From contig JAAZKM010000169.1 in the NCBI GenBank assembly GCA_012799835.1, forward strand, positions 1 through 38,292: a DNA stretch of 38,292 nt, written 5' to 3'. Below, piece after piece: positions 29,358-38,292 of the stretch. Origin of the DNA: Candidatus Methanofastidiosia archaeon (GTDB taxonomy: Archaea; Methanobacteriota_B; Thermococci; Methanofastidiosales; Methanofastidiosaceae). The notes under the pieces were generated by a model. The model saw nothing but the letters and a program-made list of their open reading frames with translations, searched no databases and was not told the origin of the DNA. Position numbers and translations under genes: made by a program. The first letter of the stretch is position 1. Every line of letters begins with the position of its first letter.

Positions 29358-30509
29358 ATGAAAAACAAAAATAATATTTTGATTACTATGGTGATTTTAT
29401 TTTTAACATTTAGTTTTTTAGGATGTGTACAAAATACCAGTTCACCACAGAAGATTGCCATGAAAGAAATAGTTGATATGAGAGGAGTGACGGTGACGAT
29501 TCCCTCTGACCCTCAAAGAGTTGTTATTGTTGATAAAGGCTTCATAACACAAAACATAGTTGCTTTGGGCGTCCAAGATAAAATAGTTGCAAGTGGTGGA
29601 ATGTTATCTTCAGAAAATGAAAAAGCAGAAGATAGGGACAGTTTATATCTATTTCCTAAGATAATAGAGCTTCCAAATGTAGGCTATACCTTTGGGGGGT
29701 TCAATTTTGAAACTCTAATATCTGTAAAACCTGATTTAGTCCTTTGGGCAAACTCAGAATATATTAAAGACAATGAAATAACTAAAGAAGCAATGGATAG
29801 AATTGAAAATGAACTTAAAATACCCATTGTAGTAATTAATACCCCCGGAGCGTATAGCAATCCTACAATGAATACCCAATATGAAGGAATTATAATATTA
29901 GGAAAAGTATTTAATAAGGAAAAACGTGCCAAAGAAATACATGACATTACTAAGAAATATGTGGACATGGTATATAATAGAACTAAGGACATCAAAGATT
30001 CTGAAAAGCCATCTGTGATGTATATTGGACTGAAAACAGATGATAGTATAGGTGCCGTTTGGGGTAAGAATTACGGAGACGCAAAGTTTGCAGAAGAAAT
30101 ATGCAACATAAAAAATGTATATGGGGAATCCAAATCACAATTAATGTCAGCAGAGCAGATAATTACCATGAATCCAGATGTGATCATACTTGCTACCAAC
30201 TCTATATTGCCTGATATCAACATATTAAGTACAGCCCCTAAATATAAACCATTGCAGAATGTCAACGCTGTAAAAAATAGAAGAATAGGTTCTTTTGGCC
30301 TTTTGACTTGGTGGGGAGACTTTAAACTTGACTATCCTACAATATTACTTATATCTGCAAAAACTGTATATCCTGAAAAATTCAGTGATATAAAGGTTAA
30401 CAAATGGGTTAATGACTACCACAAAGAGCTCTATGGATTAAACGATAATCAAGCACAGAGACTAAAGGAAATTCAACTTTTAGACTGGATGGACTCAAAT
30501 GACTTTTAA
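29358..30509 (+). CDS. ABC transporter substrate-binding lipoprotein, second set (BtuF/FecB family)
   Basis: 383 residues. The signal peptide has a lysine-rich start (MKNKNN), a hydrophobic core and lipobox SFLGC with lipidated C23. The mature part shows IVDMRGVTVTIPSDPQRVVIV, IVALGVQDKIVASGG, FETLISVKPDLVLWA, ITMNPDVIILATN and VYPEKFSDIKVNKW, as in chelate-binding proteins. It resembles the first set (about 24.2-25.3 kb) in family but differs widely in sequence, so it probably has another ligand. It overlaps the methyltransferase gene by 11 bases. Confidence 0.87.
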   Translation: MKNKNNILITMVILFLTFSFLGCVQNTSSPQKIAMKEIVDMRGVTVTIPSDPQRVVIVDKGFITQNIVALGVQDKIVASGGMLSSENEKAEDRDSLYLFPKIIELPNVGYTFGGFNFETLISVKPDLVLWANSEYIKDNEITKEAMDRIENELKIPIVVINTPGAYSNPTMNTQYEGIIILGKVFNKEKRAKEIHDITKKYVDMVYNRTKDIKDSEKPSVMYIGLKTDDSIGAVWGKNYGDAKFAEEICNIKNVYGESKSQLMSAEQIITMNPDVIILATNSILPDINILSTAPKYKPLQNVNAVKNRRIGSFGLLTWWGDFKLDYPTILLISAKTVYPEKFSDIKVNKWVNDYHKELYGLNDNQAQRLKEIQLLDWMDSNDF

Positions 30510-31344
30510 TCGGGGAACTTTGTCAAACTATATTGATTGGAATTCCATTTGGAATAAAACAATCAATTTTTCTTTTCCAGAAAATGAAAATGAAAGGAAT
30601 TATTATAATGATAAAAGACGTGCTGAAGCATACGATAACTCAAAATTAATAAAGGAAGATGGGGAAAAAAGGGCAAAAGAACTTAATTTTGATAAAAATT
30701 ACTCTGTGCTTGATATAGGCGCTGGCCCGGGGGTATTAGCAGTTCCTTTAGCAAGATATGTGAAGAAGGTAACTGTTGTTGAGCCCTCTCAATCAATGAT
30801 TGATCTTCTAAAAAAACATATCGTAGAAGAAAGATTGACAAACATCGAAATCTTTCAATCGAAATGGGAGAATTTTGACACAGCTAAAATAGAAAAACAT
30901 GACATTGTTATAGCTTCTTATTCTCTTCTTATGCAAAATATTAAGGAGTCATTACTTAAAATGGAAGATTGCTCCAATAAAGAAGTTATCCTGTATTGGT
31001 TTTCTGGGGTCACTTCTTGGGAGAAGTTGTACATGGATTTGTATCAAAAAATATATGGCAGCAACTATACACCCTCACCTAAATGTAATGTTATTTATAA
31101 TGTTCTCTATGATATGGGAAGATCTCCAAATATTACTGTGCTAAAGGGTACATCATTTCCAAAAATATATGATAGCATTGATCAAGCAATATCTGACTTA
31201 AAACTCCGTCTAAGAATATCTGATTCTAAAAATGACAAATATCTTGCTGAGTATATAGAAACAAAATTCAATAAATCAAATGGAAAATACATATGGGATG
31301 ATGATACAGTTTATGTCCAAATTAAATGGCAGCATGTGGAATAG
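30499..31344 (+). CDS. Class I SAM-dependent methyltransferase within an ABC transporter operon
   Basis: 281 residues. The SAM-binding site is VLDIGAGPGVLAVPLARYV at about residues 70-88, followed by VTVVEPSQSMIDLLKKH and DIVIASYSLLMQNI. The N-terminal IDWNSIWNKT and the long C-terminal part with YWFSGVTSWEKLY are unlike ring methylases or RNA methylases I know. The gene lies between binding protein and permease, overlapping the former by 11 bases, so it belongs to the transport operon. Modification of the imported ligand is a plausible but unproven role. Confidence 0.83.
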   Translation: MTFNRGTLSNYIDWNSIWNKTINFSFPENENERNYYNDKRRAEAYDNSKLIKEDGEKRAKELNFDKNYSVLDIGAGPGVLAVPLARYVKKVTVVEPSQSMIDLLKKHIVEERLTNIEIFQSKWENFDTAKIEKHDIVIASYSLLMQNIKESLLKMEDCSNKEVILYWFSGVTSWEKLYMDLYQKIYGSNYTPSPKCNVIYNVLYDMGRSPNITVLKGTSFPKIYDSIDQAISDLKLRLRISDSKNDKYLAEYIETKFNKSNGKYIWDDDTVYVQIKWQHVE

Positions 31345-31356
31345 AGGAGGTATTGA

Positions 31357-32373
31357 ATGATTTCAGATAACAAGACAAAAAGCACATTCCTAATTACCTC
31401 TTTAATTTTTCTTATATTAGGGATGGTTGTAGCCGTAACTCGAGGATCTTTTAACATTCCCATATTAGATGTATTTCAAGCAATTATCTATAAAATAGGA
31501 ATAGGAACAGTTCCATCGTTAGACAATGAGATTGTTGTGTGGCAGATAAGGCTTCCTAGAATCTTCTTATCCGTCATTGTTGGCGTAGCACTAGCAACTG
31601 CAGGAACAACTTATCAAGGAGTATTCAGAAATCCTCTTGTGGAGCCATACCTTTTGGGCGTATCTTCCGCTGCTGCATTTGGGGCTGCAATATCAATTGT
31701 TCTTCATTTAAGCTTTTTATCCATGCAACTAACTTCATTTGTGTTCGGGATGATTGCGATGATTTTTGCATATTCTCTTGCCACAGTTAAAAAGGAAACG
31801 CCGTTGATTAATCTTATACTCTCTGGAATAATTGTGAGTGCTATATTTTCTGCAGGCCTTTCATATTTAAAAATGACCGCAGGTTTTAGAGAGTTACGTG
31901 ATTTGGTATTTTGGTTGATGGGTGGATTTTATACTGCGAAGTGGGGTGATGTCGGACTACTTTCTGTTTTAATAACTATATCCTTTATTCTATTGTGGAG
32001 TCTCGCTTGGAAGTTAAATGTGCTGACAATGGGAGATCAGGAAGCTCAGTCTCTGGGAGTATCCGTCAAAAAGGTAAAGGCTGTAAGCATAGTACTGTCT
32101 ACGTTTATTACTTCAATAGCTATTGGAACTGTTGGGATAATTGCTTGGGTGGGACTAGTTATTCCTCATATGGCAAGAATGACAATCGGCCCAGATCATC
32201 GTTATTTGATACCTGCTTCCGCTATAATGGGAGGATTATTTTTAGTGATATGTGATACTTTAGCCAGAACTTTAACTTTTGGTGAGATTCCTATCAGTAT
32301 TTTGACTTCAGTAATTGCCGCACCATATTTGATTATTCTAGTTAGAAAAAATAGAAATCTTTACTTTGGGTGA
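31357..32373 (+). CDS. ABC transporter permease, second set (BtuC/FecCD family)
   Basis: 338 residues with the FecCD layout: IVVWQIRLPRIFLSVIVGVALA, TTYQGVFRNPLVEPYLLGVSSAA, a Gly-rich helix region, GIIAWVGLVIPHMARMTIGPDHR split around the coupling helix, and GEIPISILTSVIAAPYLIILVRK. GAGGAGG precedes the ATG. It differs clearly from the first permease in this window, so the two sets are not a recent duplication. Confidence 0.92.
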   Translation: MISDNKTKSTFLITSLIFLILGMVVAVTRGSFNIPILDVFQAIIYKIGIGTVPSLDNEIVVWQIRLPRIFLSVIVGVALATAGTTYQGVFRNPLVEPYLLGVSSAAAFGAAISIVLHLSFLSMQLTSFVFGMIAMIFAYSLATVKKETPLINLILSGIIVSAIFSAGLSYLKMTAGFRELRDLVFWLMGGFYTAKWGDVGLLSVLITISFILLWSLAWKLNVLTMGDQEAQSLGVSVKKVKAVSIVLSTFITSIAIGTVGIIAWVGLVIPHMARMTIGPDHRYLIPASAIMGGLFLVICDTLARTLTFGEIPISILTSVIAAPYLIILVRKNRNLYFG

Positions 32374-32378
32374 TAGAA

Positions 32379-33143
32379 ATGATTAAAATAAATAATTTAT
32401 CCTTTAATTACGGAACTTTGAAAGTATTAAAGGATATCACATTTAATTTAGAAAAGGGAAAATTATGCGCCCTATTTGGTCCTAACGGTTCTGGTAAGTC
32501 TACCTTGCTCAAATGTTTAGCTGGCCTCAATAAAACTAATGATGGAAATATACTGATAAATGGAGAAGTACTGAATAATTTTAATCCCAAAGAATTGGCT
32601 AAAATTATTTCTTATGTGCCACAGGAACATAAGCCGCCTTTTCCATTTAAAGTAAGAGAAATAGTTTTGATGGGACGAACTCCACATCTAGGAGGATTTT
32701 TTAATCCTTCAAAAATTGATTTAGACTTTACAGAATACTCAATGAATACTATCGGCATAACTAATATTGCCGATAGGTATTACACTGAGCTAAGCGGAGG
32801 ACAGCGACAGTTGGTTCTTTTAGCTAGATCGTTTGCACAAAACACCCCTATAATGTTGCTAGATGAGCCTACTTCGGCCCTTGATTTTAGAAATCAAATA
32901 AATATCTGGAAAACTCTAAAGCTATTGACATCTAAAGGTAAAACTGTAGTGGTCTGTACACATGATCCAAACTATGTATCATGGTTTTGTGATACTGTGG
33001 CTTTTATTGACAAAGGAGCTCTGATTGGATATGGGAATGCAAAAGAAGTAATGGATAACGACATACTAAAATTATTATATGGGGATATATGTTCAATAGA
33101 ATCAATTTTAGACATGAAAGTTATAGTTCCATCTATTTCTTGA
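32379..33143 (+). CDS. ABC transporter ATPase, second set (BtuD/FecE family)
   Basis: About 254 residues with Walker A GPNGSGKST, Q-loop YVPQEHKPPFPF, VLMGRTPHLGGFF, signature LSGGQRQLVLLARSFAQ, Walker B IMLLDEPTSALDF and CTHDPNYVSWFC. The ATG at 32379 is preferred because GGGTGA lies five bases upstream. A GTG at 32370 overlapping the permease stop would add three residues. It closes the second importer operon. Confidence 0.92.
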   Translation: MIKINNLSFNYGTLKVLKDITFNLEKGKLCALFGPNGSGKSTLLKCLAGLNKTNDGNILINGEVLNNFNPKELAKIISYVPQEHKPPFPFKVREIVLMGRTPHLGGFFNPSKIDLDFTEYSMNTIGITNIADRYYTELSGGQRQLVLLARSFAQNTPIMLLDEPTSALDFRNQINIWKTLKLLTSKGKTVVVCTHDPNYVSWFCDTVAFIDKGALIGYGNAKEVMDNDILKLLYGDICSIESILDMKVIVPSIS

Positions 33144-35117: not shown

Positions 35118-36350
35118 ATGGAAAGCACAGGGGAACGAACTGTAATCCTTAATCCAACAACTAGGCACGAGGGACATGCGAAATTAGTTCTTCATGTAGA
35201 TGACGAAGGGATAGTTGAGAGGGCATATTACATATCGACAACAATGGTACGAAGTTTCGAGTCATTGACCTTGGGAAGAACTTATGAATTTACCCCTAGA
35301 GCTTCAATGAGAATATGTGGATTATGTCCAATATCCCATGCAGAAGCGTCATGTCAGGCGATTGAGGGTGCTTTTGATCTGGAAATACCTGAAGACGCCT
35401 TGATATTGAGAGAGATTTTAGGTTTAGCAAGTAAAATGCAAGACCATGCGCTTCATCAGTTTCTTATTCTTAACGATATAGTTGATGATGAAAAAATAAA
35501 AAACGAATCAATTGAAAGAATCCAAGAATTACGAAGAATTGGACAAAAAATGAAAGATATTGTAGGTGGAGAAGCGATACATCCTTCTAATTATTGTGTT
35601 GGGGGATTTCGTACTAACATTAGCAAAAGAGCGGCTGCAAGCTTGTATAGGCTTGTTAGAAAATATGAGAAAAATGCACATTTGCAAAAAGATTTGATTA
35701 TAGAATCAATAGAGAAGAAACTCGAAAATCTTCCAAATAATATAGGAACCTCTAACTCAAGTATTCTCGCCACCCATATGACCTATGGCGATAGAAAAGA
35801 AATTAATATTGAGGCAATCAGAGAGGTAATTCCATCTAGATTTTATGGAAAAGACGAAGAAGGTAGAACTACCAATACAATGATACCACTATACTATGGA
35901 GAAACAGTTGAAACTGGCCCAAGAGCAAGATTCATTAAATTCAAAAGATTTTCCGGGGACTCTGCATTATATATCAATGTTGCTAGGGCTAGGGAGATGT
36001 TAGTCATGGTGTATAGGGCTGAGGAATTACTTGATCAGCTAGATGTTAATGGCAAGACAAAACCTGAACACATAAATGTTAAGGAAGGGGAAGGCATAGG
36101 CGTCTATGAAGCACCAAGAGGTACGTTAATTCATATGGCAAAAACAGATCAGAATGGGATTATGAAAGACTATAAAATAATATCGCCAACAACATGGAAT
36201 ATACCAACAATAGGAAAGACTATAGAAGGTTCACCACAAGAGTATGCTGAAGTCATAATGAGATCTTTTGATCCTTGCCTTGATTGTGCAACTCATTGTA
36301 TAGTTGTCAAAGATATAGAAGGCAAGATTATCGAAAGGAGGTACTTATAA
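35118..36350 (+). CDS. frhA: Coenzyme F420-reducing hydrogenase large subunit FrhA
   Basis: 410 residues, close to the usual size of FrhA, the catalytic [NiFe] subunit that splits H2 in F420-reducing hydrogenase. The nickel ligands are C67 and C70 in RICGLCPISHAE and C387 and C390 in DPCLDCATH. The residues after H393 form a 17-residue tail of the kind removed by the maturation protease once nickel is in. The N-terminal NPTTRHEGHAKL fits the group 3a family. The operon order frhA-frhD-frhG/B matches methanogens. A related non-F420 group 3 enzyme is less likely, because FrhB follows. Confidence 0.92.
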   Translation: MESTGERTVILNPTTRHEGHAKLVLHVDDEGIVERAYYISTTMVRSFESLTLGRTYEFTPRASMRICGLCPISHAEASCQAIEGAFDLEIPEDALILREILGLASKMQDHALHQFLILNDIVDDEKIKNESIERIQELRRIGQKMKDIVGGEAIHPSNYCVGGFRTNISKRAAASLYRLVRKYEKNAHLQKDLIIESIEKKLENLPNNIGTSNSSILATHMTYGDRKEINIEAIREVIPSRFYGKDEEGRTTNTMIPLYYGETVETGPRARFIKFKRFSGDSALYINVARAREMLVMVYRAEELLDQLDVNGKTKPEHINVKEGEGIGVYEAPRGTLIHMAKTDQNGIMKDYKIISPTTWNIPTIGKTIEGSPQEYAEVIMRSFDPCLDCATHCIVVKDIEGKIIERRYL

Positions 36351-36826
36351 TGAAGTACCTAACAAAAGAGAATCTTATCTTGGGGTGTGGTAATCCCCTT
36401 TTTGGTGATGATGGGTTTGGGCCAGAATTTATTAGAAAGCTAAAAGATGAAAAAATTGAGACTAAATACAATAATCTTGCAGTAATTGATTGTGGCTCTG
36501 GAATATCTCCTTTTTTAAATCTTATTAATAACTCGAAACATAAAATTAAGAATCTATACATAATTGACTGTGGGGATTTTAAAGGAAAGCTTGGAGATGT
36601 ATTGGTATTGGATGGAAAAAATATAGCTTATGAAGACTTCATTAAATCATCACATGGCATGGCTATTTCTCACGAAATAAATAATTTTTCTTCTAATGTT
36701 AAGCTAATATTAGTTCAAGGAGATGTCAATCCCGACAATATGAAACTTAAAATGAGCCAAAACGTTATGGATGCCATTAATAAAGTCCAAAAAATTGTTA
36801 TTTCTTTTATGGAGGATTCACAATGA
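36350..36826 (+). CDS. frhD: Hydrogenase maturation protease FrhD
   Basis: 158 residues from the ATG at 36350, whose A is the last base of the frhA stop and which follows GGAGGT at 36337-36342. An upstream in-frame ATG at 36284 is out of context inside frhA. The motif LILGCGNPLFGDDGFGPEFI carries the nickel-sensing Asp of HyaD/HycI-type proteases. Further marks are VIDCGSGISPFLNLI and YIIDCGDFKGKLGDV, and a histidine in SHGMAISHEINNF. It cleaves the C-terminal tail of FrhA. It overlaps the next gene as ATGA. Confidence 0.9.
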   Translation: MKYLTKENLILGCGNPLFGDDGFGPEFIRKLKDEKIETKYNNLAVIDCGSGISPFLNLINNSKHKIKNLYIIDCGDFKGKLGDVLVLDGKNIAYEDFIKSSHGMAISHEINNFSSNVKLILVQGDVNPDNMKLKMSQNVMDAINKVQKIVISFMEDSQ

Positions 36827-38292
36827 AACCAAAAATTGGGGTGTTTCAGTTAGCTTCGTGCACCGGATGCCTTTTATCTCATTTGGACACGGGCAATATC
36901 ATTTCATTTCTTAATGATTATGATGTAAAATATTATCCTTTGGTAATGGATGCTAGAGAAATCCCAGAGGAATTAGATTTGGCGGTATTTGAAGGAGCAG
37001 TAGGAACTATTGAAAAGGGACACATGAAGCTTGTAACAGAGATTAGACAGAAATCAAAGAAAGTTGCAGCCCTAGGGGCATGTGCCGTAACTACAGGAAT
37101 ATTAGTACATTCTGCAGGGAATCAAATGCCTATGCCGGAGACTGATGCATTTTTACCAGTTAGTGAAATAATAAAAGTAGACTATGCAATACCAGGATGC
37201 CCTCCAAGCCCTGAGATCATTGAAAAATTCTTTGATGCTTTCTTGAAAAAAGATGAGTTGTACCTTCAAGCATTTACTAACATTGAGGAAAATTCAGAAG
37301 TGAATGTTAGATACATAACACAAAGGGCTTTATGTATCTCATGTGGGCTTTGCGCAGCTGTATGTCCTACACTTGCATTATCTGACATAGAAGGTAAACC
37401 TGTCTTAAGAGACGAAATATGTGTAAAATGTGGAGAATGTAGATTCCAGTGTCCAAGAAGCTATATGCCTCTAGATTACATAAATGAAACTATCTTTAAA
37501 GGAGAAAGCACATCTACAGACGAATATCTTGGAAAATATATTTCAGTATATACAGTTCGAGCTGTTAATCAGGAAATATTAAAACGCGCACAAGGTGGCG
37601 GGGCTACAACTGCACTTATGAATTACTGCCTTGATTCAAGAATAATTGATGGTATTTTAACAGGCAGCAAGGATAAAGAAAAATACTGGCTTGCAAGATC
37701 TGCCATAGTAACAAACTATGATGAACTACTCCAAACAACTGGGACAACATACAATCTTTGCCCAACATTAAATTTACTTAAAGATGCAGCAACTTCTAAC
37801 TATCTTAAAAACATAGCTATAGTTGGACTCCCATGTGTCCACCAAGCAATTAGGAAACTTGAAATATACCCCCTATCCCTTAGAAGTGTAGTTGATAAAA
37901 TTTCTCTTAGAATTGGATTATTTTGTACCCATAATTTTAGATACAATGCAATGATAAAAATGATGGAAGAGTTAGGGGAAATAAGAGCCGAAGATACGTA
38001 CAAAATTGATATAGGTGCAGGCAATTACACTATTTATTCAGTTTCTGGGGATATCCAAAAAATACCTATAGATGTAGTAAGGGAATATGAGCAAGAGAGT
38101 TGTTCAATTTGCCCTGACTTTACTTCCGAACTTTCTGACATTTCAATTGGATCAATTGGGGCTCCAGAAGGATGGAATACTGTTATAGTGCGAACTGAAA
38201 TAGGCAAAAAGGTATTCGAAGCTGCGGCTAATGAAGGTTACATAGAGATAGGCAAGGAAGATAAGATCCCTCTTGATTTAGAAATAGTAAAA
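36823..38292 (+). CDS. Fused F420-reducing hydrogenase small subunit and F420-binding subunit (FrhG-FrhB), 3' end cut by window
   Basis: One uninterrupted frame of 490 codons runs off the window. Residues 1-230 are FrhG. The proximal cluster ligands are C13 and C16 (ASCTGC), C87 (GACAV) and C126 (PGCPPSPE), with D52 aligned with a conserved Asp. Two ferredoxin clusters are C171-C174-C177-C181 and C200-C203-C206-C210. Residues about 237 onward match FrhB: RAQGGGATTALM, TTGTTYNLCP, VGLPCVHQAIRKL (C318), KIDIGAGNY, CSICPDF (C407, C410) and GSIGAPEGWNTVIVRTEIG. FrhB carries FAD, a 4Fe-4S cluster and the F420 site. In known methanogens frhG and frhB are separate genes. I translated the junction codon by codon and saw no stop. 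Confidence 0.88.
   Translation, partial: MKPKIGVFQLASCTGCLLSHLDTGNIISFLNDYDVKYYPLVMDAREIPEELDLAVFEGAVGTIEKGHMKLVTEIRQKSKKVAALGACAVTTGILVHSAGNQMPMPETDAFLPVSEIIKVDYAIPGCPPSPEIIEKFFDAFLKKDELYLQAFTNIEENSEVNVRYITQRALCISCGLCAAVCPTLALSDIEGKPVLRDEICVKCGECRFQCPRSYMPLDYINETIFKGESTSTDEYLGKYISVYTVRAVNQEILKRAQGGGATTALMNYCLDSRIIDGILTGSKDKEKYWLARSAIVTNYDELLQTTGTTYNLCPTLNLLKDAATSNYLKNIAIVGLPCVHQAIRKLEIYPLSLRSVVDKISLRIGLFCTHNFRYNAMIKMMEELGEIRAEDTYKIDIGAGNYTIYSVSGDIQKIPIDVVREYEQESCSICPDFTSELSDISIGSIGAPEGWNTVIVRTEIGKKVFEAAANEGYIEIGKEDKIPLDLEIVK

Follow-up and report, generated by a model that had tools for sequence, protein, structure and literature searches.

Can the small and flavin subunits of an F420-type [NiFe] hydrogenase be carried on one polypeptide in Methanofastidiosum, an uncultured methyl-reducing methanogen whose electron flow has been inferred solely from genomes, and what kind of enzyme would result? 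The question is raised by the last three genes of a 38292-bp contig, one of a 1.94-Mb draft genome; the window analysed here is this entire contig. The relevant features are as follows.

35118..36350, + strand: frhA, [NiFe] large subunit, 410 aa (TIGR03295 494 bits, cut-off 392.5; frhD and frhGB adjoin it in all complete related loci)
36350..36826, + strand: frhD, hydrogenase maturation protease, 158 aa (TIGR00072 76 bits, cut-off 47.45)
36823..38292, + strand: frhGB, small (gamma) subunit fused to the flavin (beta) subunit, starting with ATG; 490 of about 516 codons, truncated by the contig end
36823..37473, + strand: FrhG domain of frhGB, residues 1-217 (profile match; cluster cysteines)
37459..37527, + strand: linker, residues 213-235, from the FrhG end to the FrhB start (junction comparison, pN/pS, pLDDT)
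37528..38292, + strand: FrhB domain, residues 236-490 (profile match; [4Fe-4S] ligands retained)
38011..38025, + strand: loop IGAGN, residues 397-401, replacing the canonical IGKGK near F420 (FrhB comparison)

As read from the sequence, the frhA stop and the frhD ATG overlap by 1 nt and the frhD stop and the frhGB start by 4 nt, overlaps that resemble those of a co-translated operon. The frhGB frame runs for 490 codons without a stop to the last base of the contig, and since complete homologues in the genus have 514-516 aa, about 26 residues are absent here. The FrhG profile TIGR03294 aligns to residues 3-217 (E 9e-59) and the FrhB profiles to residues 234-489 (NF006807, E 2e-86; TIGR03289, E 3e-73). 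Neither a stop nor a frameshift lies between the two matches, and the junction reads around SYMPLDYINETIFK...EYLGK. The original prediction, which placed both subunits in one open frame from 36823, is thus confirmed. The domains detected are Oxidored_q6 (13-136), Fer4 domains, FrhB_FdhB_N (242-320) and FrhB_FdhB_C (329-480), and the computed mass of a complete relative is 57.6 kDa. Elsewhere in the window, positions 24-23006 hold a cobalamin (possibly also F430) biosynthesis cluster with CobD-like, CbiS-like, CfbB/CobB, CbiD and CbiG genes and a CobQ extended at its N-terminus by about 113 aa, flanked at both ends by ECF-type cobalt transporter ATPases; a methyltransferase-like ORF (30499-31344) lies within an apparent iron/cobalamin ABC transporter operon (29358-33143).

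The frhA-frhD-frhGB locus is a variant of the group 3a [NiFe] hydrogenase, not a new kind of enzyme. FrhA of the relatives scores 460-491 bits with TIGR03295. The small-subunit half falls below the equivalog cut-off of TIGR03294 (199 bits here and 195-219 in complete relatives vs 245.5; the control L099 reaches 415), with a match covering model positions 2-222 of 228. In complete relatives the flavin half is likewise below the cut-off of TIGR03289 (267-304 bits vs 331.5; control 500) and above that of the subfamily model NF006807 (312-329 bits vs 269). The protease gives 86 bits with the frhD model TIGR00130, under its cut-off of 134.95. Models for the F420-non-reducing Mvh/Vhu type (group 3c) missed their cut-offs (VhuG 87 bits vs 450, VhuA 150 vs 800), as did the model for the F420H2 dehydrogenase subunit FpoF/FqoF (NF040616, 144 bits vs 475).

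Given that the ORF comes from a draft metagenome assembly and reaches the contig end, a sequencing or assembly artefact, in which a lost stop or a frameshift joined two genes, has to be considered. We searched related genomes for the same architecture, as the original prediction had proposed. The complete protein is present, at 86-95% identity, in eight further genomes of the genus; near-identical loci belong to Candidatus Methanofastidiosum methylothiophilum and Methanofastidiosum sp. Four genomes of a sister family, f4, carry it at about 50% identity (the copy on L048 ends at a contig edge); relatives at 46-51% identity include archaeon NM3 as well as MAGs labelled Methanofastidiosia or Methanomicrobia. 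Here family f1 is equated with Methanofastidiosaceae and f4 with the NM3 family, partly on PMC9635834; f5 would correspond to Thermococcaceae, and f3 is apparently Theionarchaea-like. Wherever contigs of the genus and of the NM3 family show it, the gene order is frhA-frhD-frhGB. Because the same unbroken frame recurs in these eight and four genomes, making 13 separate assemblies with the present one, chance or a lost stop is excluded as its source. The linker also speaks against an artefact: pN/pS is 0.050 over residues 213-235, compared with 0.070 in the FrhG part and 0.067 in the FrhB part, synonymous differences at the junction being as dense as elsewhere and replacements scarce. Judged from this codon comparison, the junction and both domains are subject to the same purifying selection. 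Taken together, the probability that the fusion is artefactual is negligible. An internal translation start for FrhB was also considered and rejected: on this contig there is no in-frame ATG, GTG or TTG between residues 216 and 262, which makes separate initiation unlikely.

To define the distribution of the fusion, we examined nearby genomes and then archaea at large. Of 23 nearby genomes, 12 gave an FrhA score exceeding the curated cut-off, and each of the 12 has the fusion. G004 (genus g1, 99% complete) has neither frhA nor frhGB, and retains CofD and NpdG; its CofE matches are split across two contigs. In G017, frhA and the FrhB half are present only as fragments at contig ends, and the contig of G019 starts within frhD. 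Among about 900 archaeal genomes, no FrhA-linked FrhG-FrhB fusion was found outside the Methanofastidiosum/NM3 clade, so the fusion as a general methanogen trait was rejected; since the survey scored the best few candidates per genome and the largest phylum was sampled, rare fusions could have been missed. All other methanogens sampled have frhG and frhB as separate genes, in agreement with the order frhA-frhD-frhG-frhB that the prediction gave for described methanogens; the same holds for Thermococcaceae. Elsewhere the two genes are adjacent, often in one frame split by a single stop. Outside the taxonomic order to which Methanofastidiosum belongs, all strong matches to FrhG and FrhB in one frame in this survey contain at least one stop, usually exactly one, with the exception of an FrhA-less protein of G530. 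In many Methanobacteriaceae-like genomes (L099, L104, L113, L116, L117, L118) the single stop is mostly TAG, at a short conserved spacing. A plasmid search returned mainly FrhB-family paralogues and weak small-subunit matches.

The spacing at the junction indicates how the two genes were joined. The stretch separating the final ferredoxin CPR from the FrhB motif LGxY measures 22 residues in the genus and about 13 in L049; Methanothermobacter-like loci have CPR, 14 residues, a stop and then the FrhB start MVLGTY. In the fused protein, the end of FrhG thus runs almost straight into the beginning of FrhB; the most likely origin is that the stop separating neighboring frhG and frhB was lost. FrhA-linked fused proteins form one clade in both the FrhG tree (100/98) and the FrhB tree (100/100). 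With both halves in single clades, one ancestral fusion is the simplest explanation, most likely in an ancestor shared by Methanofastidiosum and the NM3 family.

Fusions of FrhG-like and FrhB domains without FrhA complicate this scenario. They occur in family f3 (L050:6166-7824, L051:1813-3540, L052:890-2494) and in G530 (L114:1914-6405), where the fusion gene directly follows NuoB-, NuoC-, NuoD- and NuoI-like genes. The NuoD-like protein has two CxxC motifs and an MnhF-like gene also lies in the neighbourhood; the L114 locus could possibly encode an F420-coupled membrane hydrogenase. Family f3 genomes have two such fused paralogues, with no frhA beside them. The existence of these proteins might suggest that the fused state is ancestral and was split in other lineages. 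Consistent with this, forcing all fused FrhB domains into one clade was not rejected (p-AU 0.086), so that one old fusion and two independent ones are both possible. In the best trees, however, FrhA-less and FrhA-linked fusions belong to different clades, the former being distinct in the FrhG tree (100/99) and more weakly so in the FrhB tree (93/57); moreover, Thermococcaceae and all other sampled methanogens have two distinct genes, frhG and frhB. We therefore consider ancestral fusion improbable and favor a single, lineage-specific origin of the FrhA-linked form.

To see how the fused chain might fold, we modeled a 516-aa relative (L038) with AlphaFold2, using an alignment of 75 rows that combined fused proteins with separate FrhG, FrhB and Fer4-FrhB proteins. 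The model, linker included, has a pLDDT of 89.2 and a pTM of 0.90, with block means of 90, 80 and 92 across residues 211-240; an alignment of 12 rows gave a pLDDT of 46. In Foldseek searches, the FrhB half matched Methanothermococcus FrhB (9r51_B, TM 0.96, rmsd 1.5) and the FrhG half matched 4omf_G (TM 0.85), the fused chain as modeled thus retaining both known folds. The ferredoxin and FrhB parts jointly aligned over 357 columns with 8riu_B, the F420-reducing CODH component, itself a single chain (TM 0.85), and this suggests that the covalent link yields an arrangement already used in Fer4-FrhB proteins; as such proteins were in the alignment, this arrangement may partly be inherited from them.

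All cluster ligands expected of both subunits are invariant across the fused proteins. In the FrhG half these are C13, C16, C87 and C126 of the proximal cluster, including a Cys at the position of Asp60 in M. marburgensis, and the ferredoxin cysteines C171, C174, C177, C181, C200, C203, C206 and C210. In the FrhB half, the [4Fe-4S] ligands C338, C368, C427 and C430 correspond to M. marburgensis FrhB C104, C134, C192 and C195, the cluster cysteines described in PMC3591093. The acceptor pocket is remodeled. The IGKGK loop sits at the F420 ring, its binding of phosphate having been suggested but not proven (PMC3591093), and it is replaced in all 12 fused proteins, by IGAGN in the genus and by IGAGS, IGVGN or ISAGT in the NM3 family. 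K165 and K167 are consequently lost in 12/12, whereas separate FrhB proteins keep K167 in 21/21 and K165 in 20/21 cases. D25, M135, E136 and P139 are also replaced in all 12, position 139 being Arg in every one, and in the genus Thr takes the place of K75, which lies next to FAD.

Such remodeling raises the possibility that the hydrogenase reduces something other than ordinary F420, namely a protein (e.g. thioredoxin reductase), NAD(P) or a modified deazaflavin. Thermococcaceae FrhB shows partly similar losses (D25S, I28A, no IGKGK), and a search of two Thermococcaceae genomes found no CofD. In addition, G004 keeps CofD and NpdG without this hydrogenase, implying that F420 has other uses. On the other hand, CofD, CofE and NpdG are present in fused-protein genomes; loop positions vary in other FrhB-family proteins too; and Arg 139 could substitute for the lost loop charge. 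The closeness of cofE to frhGB in one NM3-family genome also favors F420: at L047:5209-5964 (- strand), this gene, which encodes F420-0:L-glutamate ligase, follows frhGB on the same strand at a distance of about 440 bp. F420 as substrate, assumed in the original prediction, is therefore favored by the presence of the F420 genes and called into question by the replaced lysine loop and pocket residues. With F420 synthesis genes and NpdG present, F420 is still the likeliest acceptor on this circumstantial, sequence-based evidence, and an alternative acceptor is unlikely, if far from negligible. We hold equally doubtful the broader proposal that subunit fusion accompanied acceptor-site remodeling in a lineage-specific group 3a-type enzyme passing H2 electrons to an acceptor other than ordinary F420.

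The reading we favor, and regard as probable, is a cytosolic group 3a-type enzyme with the small and flavin subunits in one chain, F420 as the likeliest acceptor and a fusion of single origin. From these comparisons we infer the activity, direction, acceptor and assembly benefit of frhGB. H2 would be split at the NiFe center of FrhA and electrons would pass through the proximal cluster and two ferredoxin clusters of the FrhG half to the [4Fe-4S] cluster and FAD, both in the FrhB half, from which hydride would be transferred to a soluble acceptor, most likely F420. Reduced F420 could feed NpdG (F420H2:NADP reductase) for biosynthesis. The original prediction held that fusion would fix the two subunits in a one-to-one ratio and join the electron path to FAD. 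In standard Frh, FrhA, FrhB and FrhG already form a 1:1:1 heterotrimer in which the electron chain is continuous and the cofactors are about 10 A apart (PMC3591093), so that the fusion fixes an existing ratio and adds no new ratio, redox center or electron path. As fusion would oblige the FrhG and FrhB modules to assemble together, the most likely gain is an enforced joint assembly of the electron-transfer module with the flavin module.

We found no description of an FrhG-FrhB fusion in the open-licence literature, in line with the prediction's statement that no published example was known; its novelty in print is provisional. PMC11237513, a survey of archaeal fusions, lists several from Methanofastidiosa and also Fsr, with no reference to FrhG-FrhB in the relevant passages. 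PMC9012536 deals with ANME paralogues of FrhB and contains nothing on FrhG, and PMC7302380 describes Mvh/Hdr and Ehb in the Methanofastidiosum group without mentioning Frh. A natural single-chain FrhGB alters the annotation of the Methanofastidiosum F420-type hydrogenase, which could be reported as missing, or as having one subunit only, because both halves score under standard equivalog cut-offs. It also indicates that frhG and frhB, neighbors that in other methanogens are often separated by a single stop codon, can fuse and stay fused, and the replaced loop raises the testable question of whether F420 is still served by the fused hydrogenase.

Among known systems, the FrhA-less fusions (L050, L051, L052, L114) resemble frhGB in combining a small-subunit-like domain, ferredoxin and FrhB in one chain. 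They differ in being about 30% identical and in a separate clade, in having largely canonical F420-pocket residues (D25, M135, E136 and the basic loop are retained) and in lacking frhA/frhD neighbors, the G530 copy adjoining group 4-like hydrogenase genes. FpoF/FqoF, the F420-reducing CODH component 8riu and the N-terminal half of Fsr share a ferredoxin domain covalently N-terminal to FrhB, with a matching predicted arrangement; unlike frhGB, they have no hydrogenase small-subunit domain and are not beside FrhA. Thermococcus FrhAGB is likewise an A-G-B hydrogenase whose FrhB is without the IGKGK lysines, but its frhG and frhB are separate and no frhD lies between frhA and frhG. The closest counterpart is group 3a FrhABG (PDB 3zfs, 4omf, 6qgr, 9r51), with which frhGB shares the order frhA, frhD, frhG, frhB, the cluster ligands and the folds, and from which it differs in forming one chain, in the replacement of IGKGK and other F420-pocket residues and in having Cys for M. 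marburgensis Asp60.
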